Source: an uncultured Bacteroidales bacterium
GTDB lineage: Bacteria > Bacteroidota > Bacteroidia > Bacteroidales > WCHB1-69
Assembly: GCA_946413585.1 (NCBI GenBank)
Contig: CAMKLG010000030.1
Location: 1-33,727 of the forward strand
Length of the DNA stretch: 33,727 nucleotides
Direction: 5' to 3'
Of this stretch, positions 1-25,969 are shown piece after piece. How positions within the stretch are numbered: the stretch's first letter is position 1; each line of letters begins with the position of its first letter. Below the pieces are notes generated by a model. The model saw nothing but the letters and a program-made list of their open reading frames with translations, had not been told where the DNA came from and searched no databases. Made by a program: the position numbers and the translations under genes.

Positions 1-334
1 GCTGCGACAGTGTGGTGACGCTGCACCTGACGCTGTGGCACGATACGGCAGTGGTCTGGAGCGACACCGCCTGCGAGACATTCACATGGAACGACAGCGT
101 TTATACGCGGACCGGCGACTACGTGCAGCGCTTCGAGACGGTTCACGGCTGCGACTCGACCGTGACGCTGCTTCTGACGGTCAATTTCCCGATGCACACG
201 GACACCGTGGTGACCGCCATCGACAGTTTCTCGTGGAACGGCACAACTTACGATTCTACGGGCGTTTACACCTTCGCGCATCCTGACGCCAACGGTTGCA
301 CGCAGGTCGATACGCTGCACCTGACGGTCTATCA
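1..334 (+). repeat. Direct repeat copy 1 (near-identical to 1030-1363)
   Basis: Bases 1-334 match 1030-1363 with two differences that I can see (both T to C, near 286 and 296). The offset is 1029 bp, exactly seven 147-bp repeat units. The copy probably continues left of the window. Confidence 0.95.
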
Positions 335-3179
335 CTCCTCCTTCACGGAGTTCACCGATTCCAACTGCGTGTCCTACACGTGGAATGATTCAACGTATTA
401 TGAGTCAGGTGATTATATCCAGCAGTTCCACGACATCCACGGGGCGGACAGCACCGTGACGCTGCACCTGACCATCTTCCCGGCACAGACGACACTGTTC
501 GACACCACCGTCTGCGACAGTTACACGTGGAATGACTCAACCTACACGCTCACAGGTGTTTACACGCAGCATTTCGAGACGGTTCACGGTTGCGACTCGA
601 CTGTGACGCTCGACCTCACGGTGAACTACAGCGCGGACACGGCCGTCTATGACACCGCCTGCAACGTTTACGTCTGGAACGACAGCGTCTATGCCGTATC
701 CGGCGAATACACCCAGTCCTTCAGGACGGTCAATAATTGCGACTCGGTGGTCACCCTCCACCTGACCGTCTGGAACAGCGACACCTCGTCGTTCGGCAAG
801 GTCAGCTGCTACCAGTTTGAGTGGAATGGCGTCACCTACGACTCCACCGGCGACTACACGCAGACGCTGGCCAACATCCACGGCTGCGACTCCGTGGTGA
901 CGATGCATCTCGTCATCAACGACACTATCTTCAACAGCTTCGATGTCGAGGAGTGCAACAGCTACGCGTGGAACGACTCGGCATATACCGTCTCCGGCGA
1001 CTATGTGCAGGTGTTCCCGTCCTCCCTGGGCTGCGACAGTGTGGTGACGCTGCACCTGACGCTGTGGCACGATACGGCAGTGGTCTGGAGCGACACCGCC
1101 TGCGAGACATTCACATGGAACGACAGCGTTTATACGCGGACCGGCGACTACGTGCAGCGCTTCGAGACGGTTCACGGCTGCGACTCGACCGTGACGCTGC
1201 TTCTGACGGTCAATTTCCCGATGCACACGGACACCGTGGTGACCGCCATCGACAGTTTCTCGTGGAACGGCACAACTTACGATTCTACGGGCGTTTACAC
1301 CTTCGCGCATCCCGACGCCAACGGCTGCACGCAGGTCGATACGCTGCACCTGACGGTCTATCATGCTGTTTTCACGGAGTTTGCTGATTCCAGCTGTGTA
1401 TCTTATACTTGGAATGACTCTACTTACTACACTTCCGGCGACTATATTCAGCATTTCTATGAAATTCACGGCGCGGATTCCATCGTTACGTTGCATCTTA
1501 CCATCTTCGATCCGGCATTTACTGAATTTTCAGATACTGCTTGTGAATTTTACATTTGGAACAACGTTACGTACAGTGAATCAGGTGAATACGGACAAAC
1601 ATTCCAGACGGTTCATGGGTGCGATTCAACAGTTACGCTACATTTGACGATCGGTCATCCTGAACCAGTTTCTACCACACAGAACGCTTGTGACAGCTAT
1701 GTTTGGCACGACAGTGTCTATACTGAAAGCGGAGTCTATCTCTTCTCGTATATTAACTCATTTGGATGTGAACAGGTTGATACATTGTATCTTACCGTTC
1801 ATCATCCCGAACACATCGCTTTCACCGAATCTGCGTGTGAGTCATACGTTTGGAATGGAACAATGTACACGAATTCCGGTGACTATGTTTATACTCATGT
1901 GGATGAATTTGGCTGTGATCAAGTGGATACGCTCCATCTTACCATCAATCATCCTGCCCATACCGCTGAAACAGAAGTGGCGTGCGAAACCTTTACGTGG
2001 CACGGCCAAACGTACACGCAATCAGGTGATTACATGTACACTCACGTAGATGCTAACGGTTGTACTCAGGTGGATACGTTGCATTTGACCATCGGTCACC
2101 CAACTCATCTTGCCACGACCCAATCTGCTTGTGAAAGCTATGAATGGAATGGCCAAACATATACTCAATCAGGGACTTATACCTATGCTCATCCTGACGA
2201 ATTTGGATGTACGCAAGTTGATACCCTTCATTTGACTATCTACAATCCTGTTCATACTTCTGAAACGGATGTGGCTTGTGAAAGCTATGAATGGAATGGC
2301 CAAACATACACTCAATCAGGAATTTATACTTATTCGCATACAGATGTGCATGGCTGTGATCAAGTGGATACGTTGCACTTGACCGTCAATCATCCGGCGC
2401 ACAATAGTGAAACAGTCTCTGCTTGTGAGAGTTATGAATGGAATGATTCTGTTTATACCGAGAGTGGTAGTTATACGTTCATTCATCTTGATGACAATGG
2501 CTGTACGCAAGTTGATACGTTGCTTTTGACTGTTCACTTCCCAGAACATACGGCCACAACGGTTTATGTTTGCGATCCGTATATTTGGAATGGAACAATG
2601 TACAGTAACACTGGTACTTACACCTTCGAGCATCTTGATGACAACGGCTGTACGCAGGTTGATACCTTACATCTCATCTTCTTGGATTCTTCTATTGAGA
2701 TTGTTTCTCGCACGAAACATTTCTGTGAAGAAGGCAGTGCATTATTGGAAGTCCATACAGAACTGTCTGATTATGAATGGAGTACTGGTGAAACGACGAG
2801 TAACATTCGCGTATATGACGCAGGCACGTACACCGTCACGGCCACGCAAGGCGAATGCACGTTGGAGGCATCTTATACAATCTCACCATGCGAAGTTAGT
2901 ATCTTGTTACCCAATGCGATAAAACCCGATGGGGACGGTCTTAACGAATACTTCAGCATTCCGGAGGCCTACTATGACCAAATTAACGATTTCGGATTCA
3001 GCATCCAGGTTTTCAATCGTTGGGGCGAGGTGGTCTTCAGTTCCACAAGCAAGTATTTCCAATGGAATGGCGAAGTCAATGGTCAGATTTACCATGACAA
3101 TGTTTATAATTACGTCATTGAATACCGTAATGAAGCAGGTTCGATACGAAAGCTCAATGGTAGTCTTATCGTATTGTAA
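3..3179 (+). CDS. Giant tandem-repeat surface protein with type B T9SS sorting domain (5' partial)
   Basis: The reading frame is open from the first complete codon, so the gene starts left of the window and lacks its signal peptide here. It holds 18 complete 49-residue repeats (nt 39-2684) with consensus features W-N-D/G-S/T-x-Y, S/T-G-x-Y and G-C-D-S/T-x-V-T/D-T-L-H-L-T. An Ig/PKD-like stretch follows (about nt 2685-2892). The last 95 residues (about nt 2893-3176) have the LPNAIKPDGDGLNEYF start, a central FNRWGEVVF and a final NGSLIVL strand, which are the hallmarks of the gliding-motility-associated C-terminal domain (CHU_C type). From family knowledge, such domains direct export through the type IX system to the cell surface. 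The role as an adhesin or surface-layer protein is inference. Units 1-9 are GC-rich and units 10-18 AT-rich. Confidence 0.88.
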   Translation, partial: CDSVVTLHLTLWHDTAVVWSDTACETFTWNDSVYTRTGDYVQRFETVHGCDSTVTLLLTVNFPMHTDTVVTAIDSFSWNGTTYDSTGVYTFAHPDANGCTQVDTLHLTVYHSSFTEFTDSNCVSYTWNDSTYYESGDYIQQFHDIHGADSTVTLHLTIFPAQTTLFDTTVCDSYTWNDSTYTLTGVYTQHFETVHGCDSTVTLDLTVNYSADTAVYDTACNVYVWNDSVYAVSGEYTQSFRTVNNCDSVVTLHLTVWNSDTSSFGKVSCYQFEWNGVTYDSTGDYTQTLANIHGCDSVVTMHLVINDTIFNSFDVEECNSYAWNDSAYTVSGDYVQVFPSSLGCDSVVTLHLTLWHDTAVVWSDTACETFTWNDSVYTRTGDYVQRFETVHGCDSTVTLLLTVNFPMHTDTVVTAIDSFSWNGTTYDSTGVYTFAHPDANGCTQVDTLHLTVYHAVFTEFADSSCVSYTWNDSTYYTSGDYIQHFYEIHGADSIVTLHLTIFDPAFTEFSDTACEFYIWNNVTYSESGEYGQTFQTVHGCDSTVTLHLTIGHPEPVSTTQNACDSYVWHDSVYTESGVYLFSYINSFGCEQVDTLYLTVHHPEHIAFTESACESYVWNGTMYTNSGDYVYTHVDEFGCDQVDTLHLTINHPAHTAETEVACETFTWHGQTYTQSGDYMYTHVDANGCTQVDTLHLTIGHPTHLATTQSACESYEWNGQTYTQSGTYTYAHPDEFGCTQVDTLHLTIYNPVHTSETDVACESYEWNGQTYTQSGIYTYSHTDVHGCDQVDTLHLTVNHPAHNSETVSACESYEWNDSVYTESGSYTFIHLDDNGCTQVDTLLLTVHFPEHTATTVYVCDPYIWNGTMYSNTGTYTFEHLDDNGCTQVDTLHLIFLDSSIEIVSRTKHFCEEGSALLEVHTELSDYEWSTGETTSNIRVYDAGTYTVTATQGECTLEASYTISPCEVSILLPNAIKPDGDGLNEYFSIPEAYYDQINDFGFSIQVFNRWGEVVFSSTSKYFQWNGEVNGQIYHDNVYNYVIEYRNEAGSIRKLNGSLIVL
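39..2684 (+). repeat. 18 tandem 147-bp (49-codon) coding repeats
   Basis: Every unit is exactly 49 codons, so unit n starts at 39+147(n-1) with no indels. Each unit has one W-N/H-D/G/N core and one Cys pair (A/S-C-E/D-S-Y near residue 12 and G-C-D/T/E near residue 38). In some units one or both of these Cys are replaced, as in the G-A-D-S of units 3 and 10. Units with TVHGCDSTVTL alternate with units having ANGCTQVDTLHL. The unit ends in a T-V/I-x strand, so a beta-sandwich fold with a disulfide is plausible but inferred. Confidence 0.93.
1030..1363 (+). repeat. Direct repeat copy 2 (near-identical to 1-334)
   Basis: Second copy of the 334-bp block. Identity breaks at the His codon that opens the next 49-residue unit (third base of the codon, 1364). 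Beyond this point the protein stays similar to the first copy, but the DNA switches to AT-rich codons. Confidence 0.95.
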
Positions 3180-4178: not shown

Positions 4179-4257
4179 AGCTTTGTAATGGTTATCGGTT
4201 ATAGATTATGGGTTATTGAATGGTTTCAAGTTACCAAATAAGGTCATGAATCACACA

Positions 4258-4548
4258 TCAACTTTTAAACATGATGTCCTGGACTAGGGGACCGAAGTCC
4301 GCTTGTATCTTTTTGATGATCTGGGATTTGTGGCCGAAGAGTTCGAACTTGAGGGCGGCGTTCTGTACGCGCACGTAAAGAATGCCGTTGCGCAAGTCCT
4401 CGCACTTTGAAAACTGGGCGCACATCGTTCCGACGTATTCCGGCCACCGTTCGAACAGCATCTGCTTGTCCATCAGATGTTGCTTCCCCGACTGGCTCAC
4501 AAACTGCCCGATCAGTTCTTTCAGGTTCATTTCGTGGTTGTCCTTCAT
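4258..4548 (-). CDS. DUF721 / DciA-like protein
   Basis: A 96-residue small protein. The core (residues 8-95) has the DUF721 pattern: a helix, then LFERWPEYVG, then a DLRNGILYVRVQNAALKFELFGHKSQIIKKI section in which a strand leads into a helix. DUF721 defines DciA, the replicative-helicase loader or operator in bacteria lacking DnaC. Bacteroidota members are typically this short, single-domain form. The replication role is inferred from the family, not from neighbours, which are Tat and QueE genes. An internal ATG at residue 7 is an alternative start. The upstream gap holds a telomere-like heptamer array (4571-4640). Confidence 0.8.
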   Translation of the reverse strand: MKDNHEMNLKELIGQFVSQSGKQHLMDKQMLFERWPEYVGTMCAQFSKCEDLRNGILYVRVQNAALKFELFGHKSQIIKKIQADFGPLVQDIMFKS

Positions 4549-4570
4549 TTGTAATGGTTATAGGTTGTTG

Positions 4571-4673
4571 AGGGTTAGGGTTTAGGGTTTAGGGTTTAGA
4601 GTTTAAGGTTTAAGGGTTAGGGTTTAGGGTTTAAGGTTTGGAATAGTCTATGTCTAAGTCAATAGTCAAAATT
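4571..4673 (-). repeat. Composite heptamer spacer A (queE to DUF721)
   Basis: On the plus strand 4571-4640 reads as TTTAGGG, TTTAAGG and TTTAGAG heptamers. After that come AGTCTATGTCTAAGTC and AATAGTCAAA up to the queE stop at 4675. The transcript of the minus-strand genes would be C-rich here. Four G-runs at 4572-4594 fit a G-quadruplex pattern on the plus strand. Confidence 0.85.
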
Positions 4674-4674
4674 A

Positions 4675-5289
4675 TTACAGTATTTGCATGTACTTATGCG
4701 TCTGTAGTGACATGCGCCATTTCGGGTGGTCGAGGATGTACTGCACGAGGTGTCCTATGATGGCGTTGCAGCGATTCCAGTCGGGTTGGAGGAAGAGAAG
4801 ACAGTTCTTGGAGACTTTTCGGGAGTTTTCCTCGGCCCAGGCAAAGTCCTCTTCGCAACCGATGACCACTTTGAGCTCGTTAGCATGAGCCAGCATTTCT
4901 GGTTTTGGAGCTGCACCGTATTTTGGGGAAAGACATATCCAATCCCACTCGCCGGAGAGCGGTTCGGAACCAGAAGTCTCTAGGAAACAACTGATTCCAT
5001 GTTCGTGCATCTTTGCGCAAAGGTAGTCCATATTGTAGAGCATAGGTTCGCCGCCGGTGACGACCACCGATCGGGATGGTATTTTCGCCGCCCTCGCCAC
5101 GATCTCGTCCACGTCCAGCTTGGGATACTTGTTCGCATTCCACGCTCGCATCTCATCGCAGAAAGAGCAACCCACCTCGCAACCGCCTACGCGCACGAAA
5201 TAGGCCGCCTTCCCCGTATGATACCCTTCGCCCTGCAGCGAATAAAACTCCTCAACCACAGGGATATACAGTCCTTTGTCGTTTGTCAT
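4675..5289 (-). CDS. queE: 7-carboxy-7-deazaguanine synthase QueE (radical SAM)
   Basis: A 204-residue protein with EEFYSLQGEG near residue 13 and the radical SAM cluster motif C37-x3-C41-x2-C44 (CEVGCSFC). VVVTGGEPML (SAM-binding GGE) follows, then LETSGS, ending LQTHKYMQIL, as in short QueE enzymes. QueE converts 6-carboxy-tetrahydropterin to 7-carboxy-7-deazaguanine in the pathway to queuosine/preQ0. The other queuosine genes are not in this window. ATG at 5289 follows a good -7 box at 5312-5319. The gene is divergent from enolase. Confidence 0.94.
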   Translation of the reverse strand: MTNDKGLYIPVVEEFYSLQGEGYHTGKAAYFVRVGGCEVGCSFCDEMRAWNANKYPKLDVDEIVARAAKIPSRSVVVTGGEPMLYNMDYLCAKMHEHGISCFLETSGSEPLSGEWDWICLSPKYGAAPKPEMLAHANELKVVIGCEEDFAWAEENSRKVSKNCLLFLQPDWNRCNAIIGHLVQYILDHPKWRMSLQTHKYMQIL

Positions 5290-5311
5290 TATTTTGATTA
5301 TTTACAATTTG

Positions 5312-5319
5312 CAAAAATA
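5312..5319 (-). promoter_or_regulatory. Bacteroidota -7 box for queE
   Basis: The minus strand reads TATTTTTG here, matching TAnnTTTG, 22 bp before the queE ATG. I see no convincing -33 TTTG. Confidence 0.65.
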
Positions 5320-5329
5320 CATTTTTTTG

Positions 5330-5392
5330 GCTATTGGCTGATGTCGGCTTTTAGCTTGCCCTCAACCCTCGACCCTTAACCCTCGACCCTAT
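5330..5392 (+). repeat. Composite heptamer spacer in plus orientation, upstream of enolase
   Basis: It reads GGCTGATGTCGGCTTTTAGC, then CCCTCGA and CCCTTAA heptamers. This is the strand-reversed version of the spacers upstream of minus-strand genes, with the C-rich strand again being the transcript strand of the downstream gene (enolase). Confidence 0.6.
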
Positions 5393-5422
5393 TTCCTCTA
5401 CTCTTCTAACCCAAAATTTTTG

Positions 5423-5430
5423 TATATTCG
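5423..5430 (+). promoter_or_regulatory. Probable -7 box for enolase
   Basis: TATATTCG followed by CGCCGC matches the Bacteroidota TAnnTTTG box with one change, 40 bp before the enolase ATG. Confidence 0.55.
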
Positions 5431-5458
5431 CGCCGCATTAAATAAAGTACTAAATTAA

Positions 5459-6760
<1,302 letters not shown>

Positions 6761-6776
6761 TCTCCTGTTTCACAGG

Positions 6777-6938
6777 TTAATGATTATAAAAAAGGCATCC
6801 CTTGTGGGGTGCCTTTTTTAGATTGTGGGGCTTGCTGTTTTCCACGCAGGGTTCGGTGATGGTGCGCTCCACGGAATCCACAAAGGGCAGATTATCAAGG
6901 ATATCCTTCATTTCTTCGCGTGTGGCACAGACAGTCAT
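6777..6938 (-). pseudogene. Possible short ORF or gene remnant downstream of the TPR gene
   Basis: On the minus strand an ATG at 6938 opens 53 codons that include MTVCATREEMKDILDNLP and VDSVERTITEPC, a plausible protein-like composition. The last dozen codons run through the enolase terminator, so the natural end is doubtful. The same frame reads back without a stop to the stop codon of the TPR gene at 6990. I do not recognise a family. It may be a decayed gene end or a chance ORF; the call is weak. Confidence 0.25.
6788..6819 (+). terminator. Intrinsic terminator after enolase
   Basis: A 14-bp stem with one G-T pair (AAAAAAGGCATCCC pairing GGGGTGCCTTTTTT) around a TTGT loop, with a T run at the 3' side. 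It starts 27 bp after the enolase stop. Confidence 0.92.
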
Positions 6939-6989
6939 GCCGTGCGCCTTTCGTAACTCAAGGGCTCTTGGTGATCTTCTGGATACTTT

Positions 6990-7829
6990 TTAATTCCTCT
7001 TCAAATACTCTTCCGCATACCGATAAAACTTCATCGCCATCTCCTTGTTGCCGCGTTTCTCGGCTTCGCGGGCGATGCTGAGGTAGGATTCATAGACGCC
7101 TTCGCGCGACAGAAGAATGCCCTTGTAATAGTCGTCGTTGCAATAACCGCTGGGCATGTTGTTGCAGAAGTGCTCGAGGGCGAGGAAGACCTCTAAGGCT
7201 TCCGCTGACCGACCGATTTTCACTAAGTTGCTGCCGTGCGTGTAAAGGCGGTCATAAAGTTCCAGCGTGAAGTCAGAAACCGCCATTTCTTGTTCGTTGG
7301 TAAGAGTAGCTTGAGTATAAACTTTATGGATAAGATCGACGCATGGCTGGAATTGCCTTTGCGCGAGCAGTATCTTGCATTTTTGTAACATGGCATCGGG
7401 GTTGAGCGGGTTATATTGCAGAGCGCGATCGAGGTTGTACATCGCGCGGTTGGTGTCGCGATAGGCCAGTTCTTCTATCGCACGTTGGTAGAACACTTGA
7501 TCCACTATGGCCTTATGCTCGGCAAATACATCGTTCAGTTGCAAGGCTTTGCTGTGAATATGTCGGAAAGATTGCTTGCTGGCGTAGAAATCCATCTTGG
7601 TGTTCCGTGCCAACGTGGTGTTCAGCTGTGCATCCACCTTATCCATCGCCTTGAGGATGTCCTGCAAAAACAGGTAGTGCAGCGACACGATTTCCGGATC
7701 CTTGTAGTCGAGCTCGTCCAAACGGTGATCCCACCGCTGGAATAATCCTGACAGTGAATCTGCCGGTACCTGCGCACTTGTCGTCGCCAGTGCCAAAACG
7801 ATGATGAAAAGGAGTCCGATTTTTTGCAA
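6990..7829 (-). CDS. Secreted/periplasmic TPR protein
   Basis: A 279-residue protein with a signal peptide (residues 1-19, hydrophobic LLFIIVLALATTSAQ, with cleavage before Q or V likely). The rest is mostly alpha-helical. A tetratricopeptide-like pair lies around residues 115-170 (RAMYNLDRALQYNPLNPDAMLQKCKILLAQRQF), and a final helical repeat near residues 240-278 includes KRGNKEMAMKFYRYAEEYL. No catalytic motif is visible, so a scaffold role in the envelope is inferred only. No ATG is available: the frame opens at a TTG (7829), with an upstream in-frame stop at 7860 and the next Met far inside the mature protein, so TTG is the likely start. A telomere-like heptamer array begins 15 bp upstream. 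Confidence 0.75.
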   Translation of the reverse strand: MQKIGLLFIIVLALATTSAQVPADSLSGLFQRWDHRLDELDYKDPEIVSLHYLFLQDILKAMDKVDAQLNTTLARNTKMDFYASKQSFRHIHSKALQLNDVFAEHKAIVDQVFYQRAIEELAYRDTNRAMYNLDRALQYNPLNPDAMLQKCKILLAQRQFQPCVDLIHKVYTQATLTNEQEMAVSDFTLELYDRLYTHGSNLVKIGRSAEALEVFLALEHFCNNMPSGYCNDDYYKGILLSREGVYESYLSIAREAEKRGNKEMAMKFYRYAEEYLKRN

Positions 7830-7839
7830 TGTTTGGGGT

Positions 7840-8058
7840 TGAGGTTTAAGGTTTAGGGTTTAAGGTTTAGGGTTTAAGGTTTAAGGTTTAAGGTTTAGGG
7901 TTTAAGGTTTAAGGTTTAAGGTTTAGGGTTTAAGGTTTAAGGTTTAGGGTCGAGAATAGTATAGGTCAAAGTTCAAAGTCAATAGTCGCTGTTACAAAGC
8001 ATTAGTTTGTAGCAAGAGAGTTATCAACTGCTAATGGCTAGTAGCTAACGGCTAACAA
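7840..8058 (-). repeat. Composite heptamer spacer B (15 perfect TTTARGG units)
   Basis: Positions 7845-7949 are 15 uninterrupted heptamers, each TTTAAGG or TTTAGGG. Then come GTCAAAGTTCAAAGTC and ACAAAGCATTAGT, and then CTAATGGCTAGTAGCTAACG up to the stop of the thioredoxin-like gene. It fills the whole gap between two minus-strand genes. Confidence 0.95.
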
Positions 8059-8586
8059 CTACTTCAAAAAGTCTTCGATGACCTTCTCCAATTCCGCTTC
8101 TGAGGGTGCGCCGACCATTTTGCCGGGTTGGGCGTTGGGCTTGAAGAAGAAAAGGGTGGGGATGCTTTGGATACCTAAAGCCTGACAAATATCCTGCGCC
8201 TTGTCCACATTGACTTTGTAAATAATCAGTTTGCCTTTGTATTTTTCGGCGAACTTTTCGGTGATGGGCTTCAATTGCATACAAGGACGACACCATTCTG
8301 CGTAAAAATCTATTATACAAGGAGTTTTGCCTTTGTATAGCAGTCCCTTCCCTTGGTCGATTTTGACGATCTTCATAAAATCATCGGATGAGAGGGAGAT
8401 GACTTTGCCAGAGAGATTTTCATTGTCCTTGAGGCTGCTTCCATCCTGGTCGGGATTCAGGTGGCTGTATGCCTCAGTGGTGTCTTCTTTCGGATTGCCG
8501 TTTTGTTCGGTCGTCTGCTTGTTTTTCTGTCCGCAGGCGGTGAAAAATAGCGCTAAGCTGATGATGAATAATATGTTTTTTTTCAT
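8059..8586 (-). CDS. Thioredoxin-domain lipoprotein
   Basis: A 175-residue protein. The signal ends in a lipobox (FFTACG, Cys18), so it should be lipid-anchored in the periplasm or outer membrane. A polar linker spans residues 20-60. The thioredoxin fold starts near residue 62, with the active site W98-C99-R100-P101-C102 in IIDFYAEWCRPCMQLKP and the cis-Pro loop QSIPTLFFF. It probably reduces or exchanges disulfides outside the cytoplasm; the substrate is unknown. The repeat proteins in this window each carry many Cys residues, but a link is only speculation. It lies between composite heptamer spacers on both sides. Confidence 0.9.
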   Translation of the reverse strand: MKKNILFIISLALFFTACGQKNKQTTEQNGNPKEDTTEAYSHLNPDQDGSSLKDNENLSGKVISLSSDDFMKIVKIDQGKGLLYKGKTPCIIDFYAEWCRPCMQLKPITEKFAEKYKGKLIIYKVNVDKAQDICQALGIQSIPTLFFFKPNAQPGKMVGAPSEAELEKVIEDFLK

Positions 8587-8595
8587 TATCTGAAT

Positions 8596-8716
8596 GGTTT
8601 AGGGTTTAGGGTTTAGGGTTTAGGGTTTATGGTTTATGGTTTAGGGCCGAGTCAAAAGTCTATGTCAATAATCACTGTCACAATGCATTAGTCTCTCGCA
8701 AGTGGACGACCAACAG
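8596..8716 (-). repeat. Composite heptamer spacer C (murD to thioredoxin lipoprotein)
   Basis: TTTAGGG and TTTATGG heptamers at 8598-8645, then GAGTCAAAAGTCTATGTC, then CACAATGCATTAGT and AGTGGACGACCAACAG, reaching the murD stop. Bases 8602-8625 carry four GGG runs with TTTA loops, a canonical G-quadruplex pattern on the plus strand. Confidence 0.92.
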
Positions 8717-10093
8717 TTAATAGCCTACTACTAATTGTTTGAAATAGTTTCCGCGTTCTTCGAAATTTTTGAACTGATTGTAGCTGGCGGCGGCGGGAGA
8801 AAGCAGAACAACGCCGTTTTGCGTGGTTTTATTGTAGGCGAAGCGCACGATCTCTTGGTAATCGTCTGTTTCGATGTGGTTTTCAGGCAGGGCGTTCTGC
8901 TCGCGACACATTTCCAACATTCGATGTCCGGCAGGACCCGTGAAAGCGATGTTCTGTATCGGATTGTCCTTTAGAAAATCGATAAGTACTTGGTAGTCAA
9001 TTCCTCTGTCGTAGCCGCCGAGAATAAGCGTATCTACACCGCGTAACGCATTCACAGCGGCGATGGCTGATTCAGGAATCGTGGAGATGCTGTCATTGTA
9101 AAATTCAATGCCCTTGAACTCACCCACATACTCTATTCGGTGTGGTAATCCTTTGAAAGTCAGAAGTGCATCAAGAATGTCGTTGTGTTTCACGCCCAAA
9201 CGGCGACAAATCGAGATAGCCGCCATGATGTTGAAATAATTGTGGGTGCCAGGGAGGTTTTTGTAGTCAATCAGGTCGTATTCATCGACGATTTCGCCGT
9301 CATTCATGAAACGAATGAGGTGATTTTTGCAACGCACGTGCAGACCCGGATGTATTTGTGTGCCGAAGATGCAGGTGTCACTTTCGGGTTTGTAACCCTT
9401 CACCCAACCAGGAATGTGCTCGTCATCCCCATTGTAAACCAAGAAGTTACCCTTCTTTTGGAATTTGAAGATGTTCATCTTGGCGATTTGGTACGTGTTG
9501 AAGGAGTTGAAGTGGTCGAGATGTTCTTGGTAGATGTTCAGTAGCACGGCATTGTCGGGTGAATGGTGCACGAACTCCAGCTGGTGCGCTGACAGTTCCG
9601 CTACTACAACAGATTCTGAGTCAAGCTGCTCCACGATGTCGAAGAAAGGCGTACCGATGTTGCCCGCTAAAAAGACATTTCCACGAGAGTGCTGCAAAAT
9701 ATGGAAAATCAGGGAGGAGGTGGTACTTTTACCCTTTGTTCCGGTTACGCCTACCACAAGCTCGTGAAAATATTCTAAAAAGAGATTCGTCTGAGAGGTG
9801 ATTTTTTCATTTTCAATGTAATAGTCAAGTCTGTTGAAACTGATGCCAGGACTTTTGAAGATGAGGTCGTAATGGTTGAGGTTGCGATCATACTCTTTCC
9901 CCTTGATGAACTTAAGGTGCTTGTCCTCGGCAAACTCATCCGTTTTGAGATTTTCATTACCGTCCGCAATCACGAGGTTCATTTTAGGGAAATGTCTCCT
10001 GATGAAACGGTAAGTGGAAACACCCTCCTTGCCGAATCCTAATATGATAACTTTTTGATTTTTAATCCTTTCTAGAAGTTGTTCTAAGGCCAT
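8717..10093 (-). CDS. murD: UDP-N-acetylmuramoyl-L-alanine--D-glutamate ligase MurD
   Basis: A 458-residue cytoplasmic Mur ligase. The N-terminal Rossmann-like nucleotide-sugar domain contains VIILGFGKEGVSTYRF (residues 15-30). The ATP P-loop is TGTKGKST (residues 117-124). The middle domain has AELSAHQLEFV and NIYQEHLDHF. The C-terminal domain has HRIEYVGEFKGIEFYNDSISTIPES and LILGGYDRGIDY, then LLSPAAASYNQFKNFEERG, the classic MurD ending. It adds D-Glu to UDP-MurNAc-L-Ala in peptidoglycan synthesis. It is not in a dcw cluster here. ATG at 10093 has a good -7 box 24 bp upstream. Confidence 0.97.
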   Translation of the reverse strand: MALEQLLERIKNQKVIILGFGKEGVSTYRFIRRHFPKMNLVIADGNENLKTDEFAEDKHLKFIKGKEYDRNLNHYDLIFKSPGISFNRLDYYIENEKITSQTNLFLEYFHELVVGVTGTKGKSTTSSLIFHILQHSRGNVFLAGNIGTPFFDIVEQLDSESVVVAELSAHQLEFVHHSPDNAVLLNIYQEHLDHFNSFNTYQIAKMNIFKFQKKGNFLVYNGDDEHIPGWVKGYKPESDTCIFGTQIHPGLHVRCKNHLIRFMNDGEIVDEYDLIDYKNLPGTHNYFNIMAAISICRRLGVKHNDILDALLTFKGLPHRIEYVGEFKGIEFYNDSISTIPESAIAAVNALRGVDTLILGGYDRGIDYQVLIDFLKDNPIQNIAFTGPAGHRMLEMCREQNALPENHIETDDYQEIVRFAYNKTTQNGVVLLSPAAASYNQFKNFEERGNYFKQLVVGY

Positions 10094-10116
10094 AGGTGGT
10101 TTGGTTTTTTGAAACG

Positions 10117-10124
10117 CAAAGATA
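10117..10124 (-). promoter_or_regulatory. Bacteroidota -7 box for murD
   Basis: The minus strand reads TATCTTTG followed by CGTTTC, 23 bp before the murD ATG. It implies that murD has its own promoter inside the run of minus-strand genes. Confidence 0.7.
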
Positions 10125-10135
10125 CTATTTTTTTA

Positions 10136-10261
10136 GGGAACAGGGAGAAGGGAGTCGTCACAAGTCACACGTCACAAGTCAAAGCCAAAGTCAAAGTTCA
10201 AAGTCAAAGTCCTCGTCACAAAGCATCCCTACCTCGCCAGTGTACGGCCAACAGCCAAAAG
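10136..10261 (-). repeat. Composite heptamer spacer D (TMTC-like gene to murD)
   Basis: GTCACAA, GTCAAAG and related heptamers run from about 10156 to 10215. After them come CACAAAGCAT and GTGTACGGCCAACAGCCAAA up to the stop of the TMTC-like gene. The TTTAGGG module is missing or reduced to a single TTTAGGGAACAGGGAG stretch. Confidence 0.8.
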
Positions 10262-12304
10262 CTAGTTCTTCCGATACTTTGCCGCTTCCTTCTCATCCCC
10301 TTTGTCCATATACATGTAGTACAAGTTCAACTTGATGTTGTCGTTGTCGGGGCTGAGTTCGAGAGCTTTCAGGAGGCAGCGTTCGGCGTTGGAGAAATCG
10401 CGTTTGATGGCGTAAGCGATGCCCATGTTCTCCCAAGCGCTGGAGAATTCAGGATGCTCTTCTACAATCTCCTTGAAAATCAGGATGGCTTCGTCCAGCT
10501 GTCCATATCCTCGACCCAAGACATTGCCTTTCACGTTCTTAGCAACAATGTTGTCGGGCTCTTTTTCCAGAATTTTGTTGACTTCGCGCCACGCTTCATC
10601 TACTTTCCCTTGGTTGAGCAATTCGTTGACGGGATCCAGTTCGTGTGCTTTCTGCGATTGAGATGCTGCGGTCAGCAGGTTCTGGGCTTGAGGGTTTTCG
10701 GGATCGATGAGCACTGCGTTTTGTGCAGCCTGCAGTGCCAGATCGGTTTTTTCGTCTAGTAAAGCTAACTCGCTGAGCAACAGGTATGCATTCAATGCGT
10801 GATTGTCCAGTTTCAGTGCTTTGTCCAGATATTTGTATGCGTCACGTTTGTCACGTTCTTTGTGGCTTTTTTTCCAGATTTGCAGACAGCTGCCGCCCGC
10901 CGAGATGTTGCATTTGATGCTGTTGTCGGAGGTTTTCACATCTGTCAGGAAAAGGGTGAAATCGTCCTTCCAGGTGAAATTACGTGTGAATGTCTTGATT
11001 CCAAAGAGCACGCAAACCACGGCTCCGATGCCTACGGCCGTCTTTTGCAGGGCAGGTGTGGGTGCGGTGGCTAATAGATAGAGCCACCAGCCTGCAAGCA
11101 GCGTGAATCCGGCTGATGCCATGAAGACGAATCGCTCGTTCATGAAGGTGCCTACATTGAAAAGAAGGTTGGAGGTGATGGAGAACGTGATGATGAAATA
11201 GAGGATGGCGAAAGCGGGTACGGTCTTCTTCTTCAGTTTCCAGATGCCATATCCAACGAGGGCGATGCAACCTACTAACAGCAACCAAACCAATGGGTTA
11301 CTGAAGTCGGTGATGGCGATTTGGTGCGGGTAGTAGTCGTGGGTGAGCGGGTGCGGGAAGAAGAGGAGTTTGAGGTATATGCCCCATGTGATCAACGTGG
11401 TGGCTATTTGTTGCGCGCGCGTGGAATGCACGTAAGGATTGTTCAGGATGTTGCTGGTCATGTCCGGCTGCATCATGCTTCCCAATGCCTTTGCGCGGAC
11501 GAAAAGGAAAAATGCGCTTCCTATCAGGAGAGGAATCAGCGTGACCAGATAGTCCATAGGACGTTTTTTGTCGCTTTGGAGATAGTAGAGCGCCAACGGG
11601 GTCACTGCAAGGAAGGTGATGGTGTTTTCTTTTGAGAAAATGCCGAAGGTGAATGCTAACAGGCTTACAATCAGCCAGTACCATTTTCTAGTATCGACAT
11701 ATTGTAAAGATGCCCAAAGTGCGGCGAAGGCTCCTAACATGGCGAAAATTTCGTCGCGACCCTTCACGTTGGCCACCACCTCAGTGTGAATCGGATGAAT
11801 AGCGAACAGCAGCGTCGCGATGAACGGTAGCGACTGGAACCATTTCTTTTGGGAGTGCTGCGGGAAAATTCGTGCCAGGACTTCGTACAGAAGTAGGCAT
11901 AATAGAATGAAATACAATAAGTTCATCAGGTGATTGACGAAGGGTAGGGGAGTGTCGTAAAAGAGTTGCTCGTTGGCAGGATTATGTAGGTTGTAGTAAT
12001 CGTCTAGGTCGCCGATTTGTTCGCGGATTTTCTTTCCAAATAATTGGAATTCAATCATGTACGTTAGTTGTGACATCGGACGGTAACGACCTCCGGCCAC
12101 GATGGAATGGTCGCTGCCGAAGTATCCTGTGAAAGTGTCTTCAGTGAAAATGCTCTTCACGGACTCCCACCCGCCTTTAATAGTGTATTTGCTCTCAAGG
12201 ATGACCATGCGGTCGTCCAGCGCATAGTGCAAAGTGAGCGTGTTTCCGTAACACATAATTGCGAGAATGGCGATGATGAGACGATGGAGGTTGTTTTTTT
12301 TCAT
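10262..12304 (-). CDS. TMTC-like polytopic membrane glycosyltransferase with C-terminal TPRs
   Basis: A 680-residue protein. Residues 1-440 are a GT-C-type polytopic membrane domain. A first helix is followed by an acidic loop with D30-D31 (YALDDRMVI), then GGRYRPMSQLTYMIEF and HPIHTEVVANVKGRDEIFAML, which match the conserved RPL and HP-x-H-TE-x-V-x-G-R-x-E motifs of TMTC/DUF1736 O-mannosyltransferase-like proteins. About ten further hydrophobic segments follow. Residues 480-680 are tetratricopeptide repeats (for example AYLLLSELALLDEKTDLALQ and ENMGIAYAIKRDFSNAERCL). By family analogy it would transfer a sugar from a lipid donor to exported proteins, but the donor and acceptor are unknown and activity is inferred. 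Bacteroidota are known to O-glycosylate secreted proteins. The start is ATG at 12304. Confidence 0.82.
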   Translation of the reverse strand: MKKNNLHRLIIAILAIMCYGNTLTLHYALDDRMVILESKYTIKGGWESVKSIFTEDTFTGYFGSDHSIVAGGRYRPMSQLTYMIEFQLFGKKIREQIGDLDDYYNLHNPANEQLFYDTPLPFVNHLMNLLYFILLCLLLYEVLARIFPQHSQKKWFQSLPFIATLLFAIHPIHTEVVANVKGRDEIFAMLGAFAALWASLQYVDTRKWYWLIVSLLAFTFGIFSKENTITFLAVTPLALYYLQSDKKRPMDYLVTLIPLLIGSAFFLFVRAKALGSMMQPDMTSNILNNPYVHSTRAQQIATTLITWGIYLKLLFFPHPLTHDYYPHQIAITDFSNPLVWLLLVGCIALVGYGIWKLKKKTVPAFAILYFIITFSITSNLLFNVGTFMNERFVFMASAGFTLLAGWWLYLLATAPTPALQKTAVGIGAVVCVLFGIKTFTRNFTWKDDFTLFLTDVKTSDNSIKCNISAGGSCLQIWKKSHKERDKRDAYKYLDKALKLDNHALNAYLLLSELALLDEKTDLALQAAQNAVLIDPENPQAQNLLTAASQSQKAHELDPVNELLNQGKVDEAWREVNKILEKEPDNIVAKNVKGNVLGRGYGQLDEAILIFKEIVEEHPEFSSAWENMGIAYAIKRDFSNAERCLLKALELSPDNDNIKLNLYYMYMDKGDEKEAAKYRKN

Positions 12305-12305
12305 T

Positions 12306-12368
12306 GTTTAGAGTTTAAGGTTTAGAGTTTAAGGTTTAGAGTTTATGTTATAAATTAACAGCGAGCAG
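12306..12368 (-). repeat. Composite heptamer spacer E (kdsA to TMTC-like gene)
   Basis: GTTTAGAGTTTAAGG-type heptamers (TTTAGAG and TTTAAGG alternating) fill 12306-12345. CAGCGAGCAGCTAAC follows, up to the kdsA stop. A short, degenerate member of the family. Confidence 0.8.
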
Positions 12369-13184
12369 CTAACACATTATCGCTTTACGTATCCGTAACA
12401 GCTTTTCCAACAGTGGTTTGAGTTCGTGTAAGGGAAGCATGTTGGCTCCGTCGGAGAGAGCCTTGGCGGGCTCGGGGTGGGTTTCCATGAAGAGACCGTC
12501 GAAGCCGACGGCCACACCGGCCTTGGCGATGGTCTCGATGAGGTCAGGTCGCCCGCCGGTGACTCCGGAGGGCTGGTTGGGCTGTTGTAATGAGTGAGTG
12601 CAGTCGAGGATGACCGGGCAGTGGTTCTCCTGCATGGCTTTCACGCCGCGGAAATCGACGATGAGGTCTTGGTAGCCGAAAGTGGTACCACGCTCGGTGA
12701 GCATCACACGCGGATTGCCCGCGCCGCGTACTTTACCTACCGCGCCGCCCATGGACTCTGGCGACATAAACTGTCCCTTTTTGATGTTGATGGTGCGACC
12801 CGTTTGGGCTGCCGCTACCAGCAGGTCGGTCTGACGGCAAAGGAAAGCGGGGATTTGCAGTACATCAGCAACTTCTGCCGCCCATGACGCTTCGTTTGCC
12901 GTGTGGATGTCTGTTACAATGGGGACCTGCAACTCCTCCTTCACACCTTTCAGAATGGCCATGGCTTTCTCGTCCCCAATGCCCGTGAAAGAACTTGCGG
13001 ATGAGCGATTGGCTTTTCTGTAAGATGCTTTGAAACAGAAAGGTATGCTTAGATCTTTGCATATCTTGTTGATTTCTCGTGCAATACGAAAAGTGATCTC
13101 CTCACTCTCCACTACACACGGCCCTGCGATTAAGAAAAAGTTGTTTTTGCAGGCTTCAGTTGACAAAAAAATGTCTGGTAGCAT
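12369..13184 (-). CDS. kdsA: 3-deoxy-8-phosphooctulonate (KDO-8-P) synthase
   Basis: The product is 271 residues from the ATG chosen at 13184. Visible motifs are FFLIAGPCVVESEEI, FKASYRKANRSS, VPIVTDIHTANEA, LQIPAFLCRQTDLLVAAAQTG, NIKKGQFMSPE, LTERGTTFGYQDLIVD, DCTHSLQQP and LFMETHPEPAKALSDGANMLPL, all characteristic of KdsA. It condenses arabinose-5-phosphate and phosphoenolpyruvate to KDO-8-phosphate for lipopolysaccharide inner core. An in-frame ATG at 13244 is rejected because the -7 box at 13210-13217 lies downstream of it, so the longer form would not be transcribed from this promoter. The extra 20 residues also precede the family's usual start. Confidence 0.97.
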   Translation of the reverse strand: MLPDIFLSTEACKNNFFLIAGPCVVESEEITFRIAREINKICKDLSIPFCFKASYRKANRSSASSFTGIGDEKAMAILKGVKEELQVPIVTDIHTANEASWAAEVADVLQIPAFLCRQTDLLVAAAQTGRTINIKKGQFMSPESMGGAVGKVRGAGNPRVMLTERGTTFGYQDLIVDFRGVKAMQENHCPVILDCTHSLQQPNQPSGVTGGRPDLIETIAKAGVAVGFDGLFMETHPEPAKALSDGANMLPLHELKPLLEKLLRIRKAIMC

Positions 13185-13209
13185 ATTCTTGAATGTTTTT
13201 TTCAGGCGG

Positions 13210-13217
13210 CAAAGATA
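13210..13217 (-). promoter_or_regulatory. Bacteroidota -7 box for kdsA
   Basis: The minus strand reads TATCTTTG followed by CCGCC, 25 bp before the ATG at 13184. It decides the kdsA start. Confidence 0.72.
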
Positions 13218-13475
13218 CGATTTTTGAGACGTTGGCCGCTTCATTTAGGAGATGTTTTTTCATCAACCCTTTTTTATCAAAATCCCATTTTTACATTTAC
13301 AGTGCAATTGTTGCGTCCGCTTTTCCTTTCTGCATTCAAACCTTTATCCCAGATTTGAAACAATACCTGACGTTTTTGTCCGAAAGTGCGACACGTAAAT
13401 TTTTACAGTTAATTGTTAAGAAATGAAAATGAAAAATAATTTTAATTATATGTAGGTTTGTGTTGGGAAAAGTTT

Positions 13476-25902: not shown

Positions 25903-25930
25903 AAATCTCTAATTTATTGGTTTTTGTGAA

Positions 25931-25960
25931 TGTAGAGACGCACCATGGCACGCCTCTACA
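25931..25960. repeat. Palindromic repeat, copy 2 of 4 (TGTAGAGACG family)
   Basis: TGTAGAGACG and CGCCTCTACA arms (one mismatch) around a CACCATGGCA centre containing CCATGG. It lies inside the operon, between mmdA and the OadG-like gene. Confidence 0.85.
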
Positions 25961-25969
25961 ACGAACATA

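Follow-up and report, generated by a model that had tools for sequence, protein, structure and literature searches.

Composite heptamer spacers with ordered modules and a non-repetitive core in intergenic gaps of an uncultured Bacteroidales bacterium

Heptamer spacers between the genes of the window

The window, that is, the whole stretch of 33,727 nucleotides analysed here, lies on contig 30 (CAMKLG010000030.1) of a 2.98-Mb draft genome of an uncultured Bacteroidales bacterium of the WCHB1-69 lineage (GCA_946413585.1; 125 contigs, 87.8% complete), and several of its intergenic gaps are occupied by composite spacers, in which different tandem heptamers follow one another and, in some gaps, flank a non-repetitive core. 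The genes around these spacers are ordinary ones, for DciA-like, radical SAM, enolase (identified by Pfam), TPR, thioredoxin, Mur ligase, a second TPR and DAHP synthase proteins, with no obvious common function. Among named genomes, the nearest matches of the enolase were in Bacteroidales drafts. The radical SAM gene is referred to below as queE-like, a name that we inferred, the Mur ligase gene as murD-like, and the gene of the 680-residue TPR protein as TPR680.

Read on the C-rich strand, the modules are C (TTGGCTG/TTAGCTG; RGCTRTT), B (CTTTGAC/CTTAGAC/CTATGAC; CTTTGAM), D (CCCTAYT, e.g. CCCTATT), which lies between B and A, A (CCCTAAA/CCTTAAA; CCYTAAA), and E (ATAACC; MATAACC), which lies on the start-codon side; D and E are additional to the preliminary description of this DNA. 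That description had placed tandem heptamers in five gaps between minus-strand genes and before the plus-strand enolase gene (eno), and Tandem Repeats Finder (TRF) returned an array at every one of these places. It had also reported the same modular order in all five gaps, with one gap lacking the first, TTTAGGG-type module. Inspection by eye indicated that no gap breaks the order and that the gap of 10094-10261 indeed lacks the TTTAGGG-type module, but that not every gap holds every module: the TTTAGGG-, GTCAAAG- and GGCTAAC-type parts are all present in 7830-8058 and 8587-8716, the gap of 4549-4674 has no GGCTAAC part, and that of 12305-12368 has no GTCAAAG part. Furthermore, three of the five gaps hold, between C and B, the non-repeated core, which the preliminary description had missed.

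On the minus strand, the composite spacer between TPR680 and the murD-like gene (10094-10261) consists of C heptamers, the core, B heptamers (CTTTGAC/GTCAAAG; TRF array 10157-10211), D-type CCCT units and then a promoter-like TATCTTTGC. The murD-like/thioredoxin spacer (8587-8716, same strand) holds the core, B and A heptamers (CCCTAAA on the coding strand; TRF array 8596-8646), and the thioredoxin/TPR spacer (7830-8058, same strand) holds C, a diverged core, B and a long run of A heptamers, which is with 15.6 units the longest array in the window (TRF, 7842-7950). The minus-strand spacer from the queE-like to the dciA-like gene (4549-4674; TRF array 4567-4639) has B-type and then A heptamers, with no C and no core, and the short one from DAHP synthase to TPR680 (12305-12368, also minus; TRF array 12306-12345) has CTGCTCGCTGTTA and then A heptamers. 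On the plus strand, a heptamer insert of 78 nt (5326-5403; TRF array 5359-5390), with C and then CCCTCRA units, lies between the divergent queE-like and eno promoter-like sequences and has no counterpart in two related genomes, G087 and G099. A short E-type run (ATAACC on the coding strand) that was not in the preliminary description was also detected by TRF on the minus strand at 4190-4216.

Module order and the non-repetitive core

The wider analysis used 0.83 Mb of the 2.98-Mb genome as a sample, and two samples pooled gave 410 intergenic regions; the genes were called by a simple script, so that some gap borders are wrong, and the core coordinates are independent of gene calling. The window's own genome is denoted G000, the other G-numbered genomes are the relatives compared, and the genus and family sets comprised 40 and 104 genomes. 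In the first sample, a score of at least 12 at lag 7 was obtained in 47 of the 218 intergenic regions, as against 0-5 at lags 4-6 and 8-13; such scores at lag 14, seen in 35 regions, correspond to a multiple of lag 7. Ten modules, searched with at most one mismatch in 14, were each present in 6-34 of the 410 intergenic regions, compared with 0-1 each in resampled sequence, and the tandem units make up a set of mutually related heptamers. Scans of whole sequences at lag 7, which take in genes as well as intergenic DNA, gave 94 arrays in the 0.83 Mb of G000, where lags 5-6 and 8-13 yielded 0-6. The corresponding numbers were 29 for G007 (0.36 Mb), 10 for G004 (0.40 Mb), 5 for G006 (0.10 Mb) and 5 for G108 (0.14 Mb). 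In other genomes, almost all of them Bacteroidota, 80 loci anchored on enolase were scanned likewise and gave 32 arrays in 1.47 Mb, present at 16 of the loci. These counts indicate that the heptamer habit is broad and, among the samples, strongest in G000. As separate observations, several A arrays lie within about 100 bp of contig starts (G000 C22:99 and C29:64; G012 C5:23, C7:41 and C24:4), as if breaking assemblies, and C heptamers facing their own inverted copy make imperfect hairpins in G000 (C12:11533-11680, C15:19505-19666 and C16:32728-33128), the last of which adjoins a putative RNase P RNA-like sequence.

With strict matching in the 410 intergenic regions, the order C-B-D-A-E was kept by all 30 module pairs, on 17 of 17 multi-module intergenic strands, and reversed copies keep the same internal order though they lie at the opposite gene edge. 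The proposal that two 7-bp modules in fixed order are not a simple slippage tract was supported by this order together with the common non-repetitive core. In the whole of G000, two exact patterns placed B before A at six loci and A before B at one, and in the 40 genus genomes the same patterns gave 28 loci in order and 13 contrary ones (hits within 100 bp merged by eye). G108 runs the other way, with A before B at five loci versus two, and under looser matching A preceded B in both A-B pairs of its sample; the G087 and G006 samples were too small under that matching to judge order. Thus, random order, which the preliminary description had named as evidence that would speak against it, was not seen in the bacterium's own genome and was partly seen in the genus, and the contrary loci, with G108, make the order a property of some lineages. 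Looser matching also gave hits in shuffled gaps (17 of 219 and 24 of 191), so that counts obtained by it include chance matches. The heptamer repeats are thus genuine and greatly exceed chance expectation, and their order is genuine as well.

In tandem gaps (both samples, strict matching), the sense:antisense ratio was 22:6 for A and 10:1 for E, compared with 10:10 for D and 3:8 for C, and looser matching gave 20:4 for A in the first sample versus 9:8 in the second. Orientation, which had been proposed to follow the downstream gene, is therefore a tendency in some modules and not a rule. Reversed copies are found elsewhere in G000, with GGTTTAG adjoining the upstream stop codon. The stop codon beside sense C modules was TAG in 21 of 32 genes of this genome, as against 143 of 576 overall, an excess indicating that the unit TTAGCTG often supplies or abuts the stop codon.

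The core spans about 50 nt, contains no repeat and reads TTGGTCGTGCACTGGCGAG-N5-GATGCTTTGTNAC. An all-against-all comparison of gaps gave a non-periodic similarity of 10094-10261 to gaps on contigs 9 and 10, and a genus-wide search with 10186-10262 gave matches spanning C, core and B in several genomes. Another query, 7955-8055, tried as a mobile unit and rejected, had found only the neighbouring gap and two short matches besides itself, because it holds the most diverged core copy, and it was 10186-10262 that then revealed the family; a very loose fuzzy core pattern was dropped, the hits listed for it being mostly chance ones in coding sequence. Twenty-six copies from six genomes align almost without gaps (TTGGCTGTTGGTCGTGCACTGGCGAGAAACGGATGCTTTGTAAC), with 6 invariant and 9 nearly invariant columns and with CACTGGCGAG nearly invariant, although their mutual identity is no test in itself, since they were picked by their match to a window copy. 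The sequence-only model built from these 26 copies (R1) includes the three minus-strand copies of the window, namely the best one at 10210-10258 (49.3 bits, E 1.0e-12 in G000), one at 8672-8720 that overlaps the upstream stop codon (40.7 bits), and the most diverged one at 7986-8034 (26.9 bits); the first of them also matched a copy on contig 10 independently by blastn (E 3.4e-14). At E <= 0.01, R1 had 12 matches in G000, 14 in G087 and 31 in G009. One or more matches were obtained in 15 of the 104 family genomes, of which 13 belong to the genus and the other two have one weak match each. When 295 genomes were drawn from the whole order, four or more of the genus being among them, R1 matched at E <= 0.001 in G000 alone, and the 80 enolase-anchored loci had no core match.

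The surroundings of the core were consistent among the copies. In 21 further copies outside the model, C-type units preceded the core in all and B-type or related heptamers followed it in 20 (by eye), R1 itself covering the nearest two C units. To the right of the core in the 47 copies, several of which are mutually orthologous and hence not independent, A, B-types, D and E occurred solely on the core's strand (A 22 versus 0, D 10 versus 0), and C2 and C were there 6 versus 1 and 3 versus 2, core's strand versus opposite. A second core (TTTCGCGAACACTG, at most three mismatches) was present at 5 of the 47 loci, all in G009 and none in the window. At 20 of the first 26 core loci (17 TAG, 3 TAA) and at 17 of the other 21 (8 TAG, 6 TAA, 3 TGA), a frame that is open for 200 nt or more and runs on the same strand as the core ends at most 80 nt upstream, and some of these frames are possibly shadows of opposite-strand genes; the core usually sits after a gene end. 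The presence of a common non-repetitive core at unrelated loci demonstrates that the core-bearing composites descend from a common source.

The same gaps in related genomes

The gaps that hold composites in the window differ between species. In five distant congeners, the start of the thioredoxin gene is separated by 14-17 nt from the last aligned codon of the preceding gene (stop included) and that of the TPR gene by 9 nt, and the murD-thioredoxin and thioredoxin-TPR distances, which are 133 and 232 in G000, are 8 and 52 in the closer G007. In G087, a close relative whose murD-like protein is 96.5% identical, the gap between DAHP synthase and TPR680 has a related array (91 nt, stop codon excluded, versus 64 in G000), and the gap between TPR680 and murD, 85 nt long, keeps the C and D edges and lacks the core and B. 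Its murD-thioredoxin gap has C-type heptamers and then a GC-rich repeat common to G009, where G000 has a core-bearing composite, and the thioredoxin-TPR gap holds a composite in G000, G087 and G009 alike. The queE-like gene and eno are adjacent in 5 of 30 enolase loci; the gap between them is empty in G087 (99 nt) and G099 (102 nt), both promoter-like sequences being retained, and is filled in G000, G108 and G012, each with its own heptamers. Among 32 adjacent gene pairs compared with G007, two arrays were shared, one was in G000 only and three were in G007 only, the comparison with G004 covering 13 adjacent gene pairs; one orthologous gap carries CCCTATT units in G000 where G007 carries CACTATT units. 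It was also observed that a GC-rich repeat (CCAAGAGGGCTGCAGGCCCGACACGTGTCAACCC...) lies in the murD-thioredoxin gap at L351 and L352, where G000 holds its heptamer composite, and that further GC-rich repeats with dispersed copies (CCCCACACTGCGCTCCTTCGTCGCTTGTGTGGGG and others) occur in the same gaps as heptamer arrays in G000 (C10:23000-23179 and C15:30744-30900; L158 and L168).

The core is kept in place across species at some loci, and the core loci include eight groups with common flanks, one of which also joins two neighbouring window copies. Orthologous copies often differed in length by whole units (21, 21 and 7 nt). Among 46 other cores, the closest to that of 8672-8720 was G087_C50, which is G087's copy of the next gap (45/54).

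To relate spacer divergence to that of the genes, we set the identity of orthologous spacers beside the fourfold-site identity of their neighbour genes, the coding strands of which were taken from the longest open frames. Two of the four G000/G087 spacers were identical without gaps at 152/153 and 200/204 positions, the first taking in the whole core unchanged, and the other two at 164/190 and 153/201; because repeats align easily, array identities are upper bounds. The fourfold-site identity was 0.64-0.70 beside the first spacer, 0.80-0.82 beside the second and 0.67-0.79 beside the third, and six genes of the window region had 0.65-0.75 between these genomes. In a fifth pair, G000/G009, the spacer (150/162) was less conserved than its flanks, which were 97-99% identical. 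From the alignments, the highly identical spacers would be either constrained or recently exchanged. As an observation on its own, the flanks at the L346/L294 locus are 97-99% identical between G000 and G009, in contrast to the 58-78% protein identity of three window-region genes (the Mur ligase, over another part, has 87% and enolase 97%), and this locus may perhaps represent a recent transfer between species.

Two further repeats of the window lie apart from the spacers. A 147-bp tandem repeat of 2.2 copies (2127-2445) is located within a large open frame (12-3179), and an intergenic palindromic GTAGAGACG...CGTCTCTACA repeat (25903-25969) is also present in another gap of G000, similar palindromes preceding eno in G006 and G092.

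Origin and meaning of the composite spacers

The gaps probably hold whole or partial copies of a dispersed composite spacer family, which would spread from gap to gap by copying, with lengths changing largely by whole units. Such a family would account for the dispersed core, the polarity, the differences between species in whether a given gap holds the spacer, lacks it or has another filler, and the unit-number differences of orthologous copies, all of which were observed. A full copy begins at the upstream stop codon, which is often TAG, or directly behind it, runs through C heptamers, core, B, D, A and E, and ends at the next promoter or start codon. New copies may arise when an existing spacer is copied into another gap, by ectopic gene conversion or by template switching, for which the heptamers would provide the homology; the unit number could then expand and contract by slippage, and selection would mainly purge copies harmful to a promoter, a start or a coding sequence. 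Under copying from an ancestral composite the module order would be inherited, and the orientation bias near starts would reflect what selection tolerates rather than a device of each gene. The spacer, gained and lost as it is between close species, looks more like spreading filler than a gene-specific switch.

Several results weigh against the copying of a common composite or against the module order. R1 places the core in only about 7 of the 111 sampled gaps that bear modules, so that common descent is established for those alone. Under looser matching, the first sample had 53 of 60 module pairs in agreement with the order and the second had 28 of 29, and the strict cut-off was fixed after these results were known. 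The modules of other species interconvert by single changes and occur in reverse order, which fits independent slippage for part of the arrays, and length differences of 27 and 20 nt were not multiples of 7. The preference for TAG was weaker in the second set of cores (8 of 17) than in the first (17 of 20). The core of 8672-8720 matched the next-gap copy of its own genome at 39/54, no better than an unrelated copy of that genome (40/54), and no copying event with a near-identical donor was caught, so that gap-to-gap copying is suggested rather than demonstrated. Finally, two spacers that are 98-99% identical beside genes with fourfold-site identities of 0.64-0.82 are not what freely turning-over neutral filler predicts. 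These two spacers would be explained by a self-spreading spacer, whose sequence-specific core directs the copying of ordered heptamer blocks between gaps and species, spacers being thereby exchanged more freely than the adjoining genes, an extension that we regard as unlikely.

They also speak for a functional cis element, with composites that selection maintains because the core or the heptamers are bound by a protein, or because a C-rich, stop-rich, unstructured leader tunes termination or translation. This is possible, though rather doubtful. The near-invariance of CACTGGCGAG in copies chosen by similarity and the sense bias of A and E in tandem gaps point to it, as does the stop codon carried on either strand by 91 of 106 arrays, compared with a fraction of 0.71 for letter-shuffled heptamers and 0.54 for other intergenic heptamers, in a test that treats arrays as independent. 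The remaining two G000/G087 spacers and the G000/G009 spacer, however, are not conserved in this way, close species lack the composites or have something else in the same gap, in five congeners the genes follow one another tightly, and the window's neighbour genes share no evident role. The core alignment gave no fold on either of the two strands (mean z 0.13 and 0.28, core only), and Rfam had no match at the core in 20 core loci, its only hits being a tRNA and a match overlapping on the opposite strand, which lie outside the core in L300. Promoter-like (14 versus 10.2) and terminator-like sites (6 versus 10.2) in the region were not clearly above shuffles; the six terminator-like sites of 4200-13300 include none in the five gaps and one in the queE/eno insert (5336-5349). 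Independent slippage alone, by which arrays arise in each gap from similar seeds and their order reflects demands on base composition from stop to start codon, is quite unlikely. Intermediate units (CCTTGAA and TCTAAAC) do link the modules, and the CCCTATT/CACTATT gap of G000 and G007, the different heptamers of three species in the queE/eno slot, and arrays at 16 of 80 loci that had been picked by enolase all agree with it, but it explains neither a non-repetitive core common to unrelated loci nor reversed copies that retain their internal order at the other gene edge.

The dispersed copies, their modular build and the clean 78-nt filled/empty pair at queE/eno would also suit a non-autonomous transposon similar to miniature inverted-repeat transposable elements (MITEs), repetitive extragenic palindromes (REPs) or BOX and moved by a transposase. 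This is very unlikely, because terminal inverted repeats were not found in three window composites (173-295 of 300 shuffles scored equally) and no target duplication was seen by eye in the one filled/empty alignment (queE/eno), both features being those of MITEs. The composite of 10094-10261 had no match in phage or plasmid records, and genes of the Y1 (RAYT) transposase to which the palindromic units of REP elements are tied (PF01797) are present in 36 of the 40 congeners, with two in G000, a distribution without apparent link to the 13 core-bearing genomes, other transposase families not having been searched. We consider it extremely improbable that the spacers are G-quadruplex repeats, in which the GGGTTTA strand folds and acts near starts as proposed for GGGNATC heptamers. 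The geometry resembles that in PMC4692102, with the G-rich strand antisense near starts and sense near stops, and the canonical pattern was found in 17 of the 111 gaps that bear modules, in 10 of the 34 that bear A and in three of six window gaps (4549-4674, 8587-8716 and 5290-5470). Nevertheless, 24 of the 34 A-bearing gaps lack the pattern, as does the window's longest array (7842-7950); GGG runs are absent from the B, C and E units, and the units differ from GGGNATC with its four G-tracts.

BOX-like modular intergenic repeats are defined by a fixed module order with a variable copy number of inner modules, BOX itself being built as boxA-boxB-boxC. In the present family, likewise, the order held on all 17 strands and unit numbers vary between orthologous copies, whereas the core has no stable RNA secondary structure. 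The cyanobacterial short tandemly repeated repetitive sequences (STRR) are another known group, and the over-representation of 7-bp tandem units against other periods between genes places the spacers among bacterial intergenic heptamer repeats in general. The preliminary description had known of no element with this layout. Ordered heptamer modules around a core were indeed not found described in the accessible open-access literature, subscription papers being mostly uncovered, although intergenic heptamers near starts are known (PMC4679880; PMC4692102). According to the accessible parts of one report (MacGregor, 2015, PMC4679880), TAACTGA direct repeats occur in marine Beggiatoaceae, Cyanobacteria and some Bacteroidetes as intergenic heptamers, mostly just before start codons in one genome, with multi-heptamer assemblages in some Bacteroidetes and with relatives that have shorter, repeat-free gaps. 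They resemble our spacers in these respects, but those parts describe one main heptamer and no fixed multi-heptamer order or non-repetitive core, and the 45 exact tandem unit classes that were commonest in our first sample do not include TAACTGA. The GGGNATC repeats of Xanthomonas and Nostoc, as far as the accessible text reports (Rehm, 2015, PMC4692102), are likewise genome-wide and over-represented between genes, with the same strand bias near starts and stops, but consist of a single G-rich unit with four copies preferred, whereas the present family has several units, most of them not G-rich, plus a core. The same accessible text cites three heptanucleotides of Calothrix, and STRR share with our family several different tandem heptanucleotides in one genome but are described there with no order, core or spread of whole composites (PMC4692102). 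BOX of Streptococcus pneumoniae, in the accessible part of its description (Croucher, 2011, PMC3049150), is similar in being a small interspersed modular repeat nearly confined to one species group, and it and related pneumococcal repeats are considered probably parasitic rather than host-specialised; it has extensive secondary structure, in contrast to the 7-bp modules and unstructured core of the present family. Thus, the composite spacers fall within the known bacterial heptamer and modular intergenic repeats, as a variant with ordered modules and a core.

Heptamer repeats recur in unrelated bacteria, with no accepted reason. In genomes such as this one, long intergenic gaps and stop codons borne by repeats need not mean regulation, which is a warning for their interpretation. 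A single genus with 40 genomes, in which ordered heptamers fill gaps that are closed up in relatives, offers a concrete system for the birth, copying and tolerance of such repeats, and the same system makes it possible to ask whether a protein reads the core.

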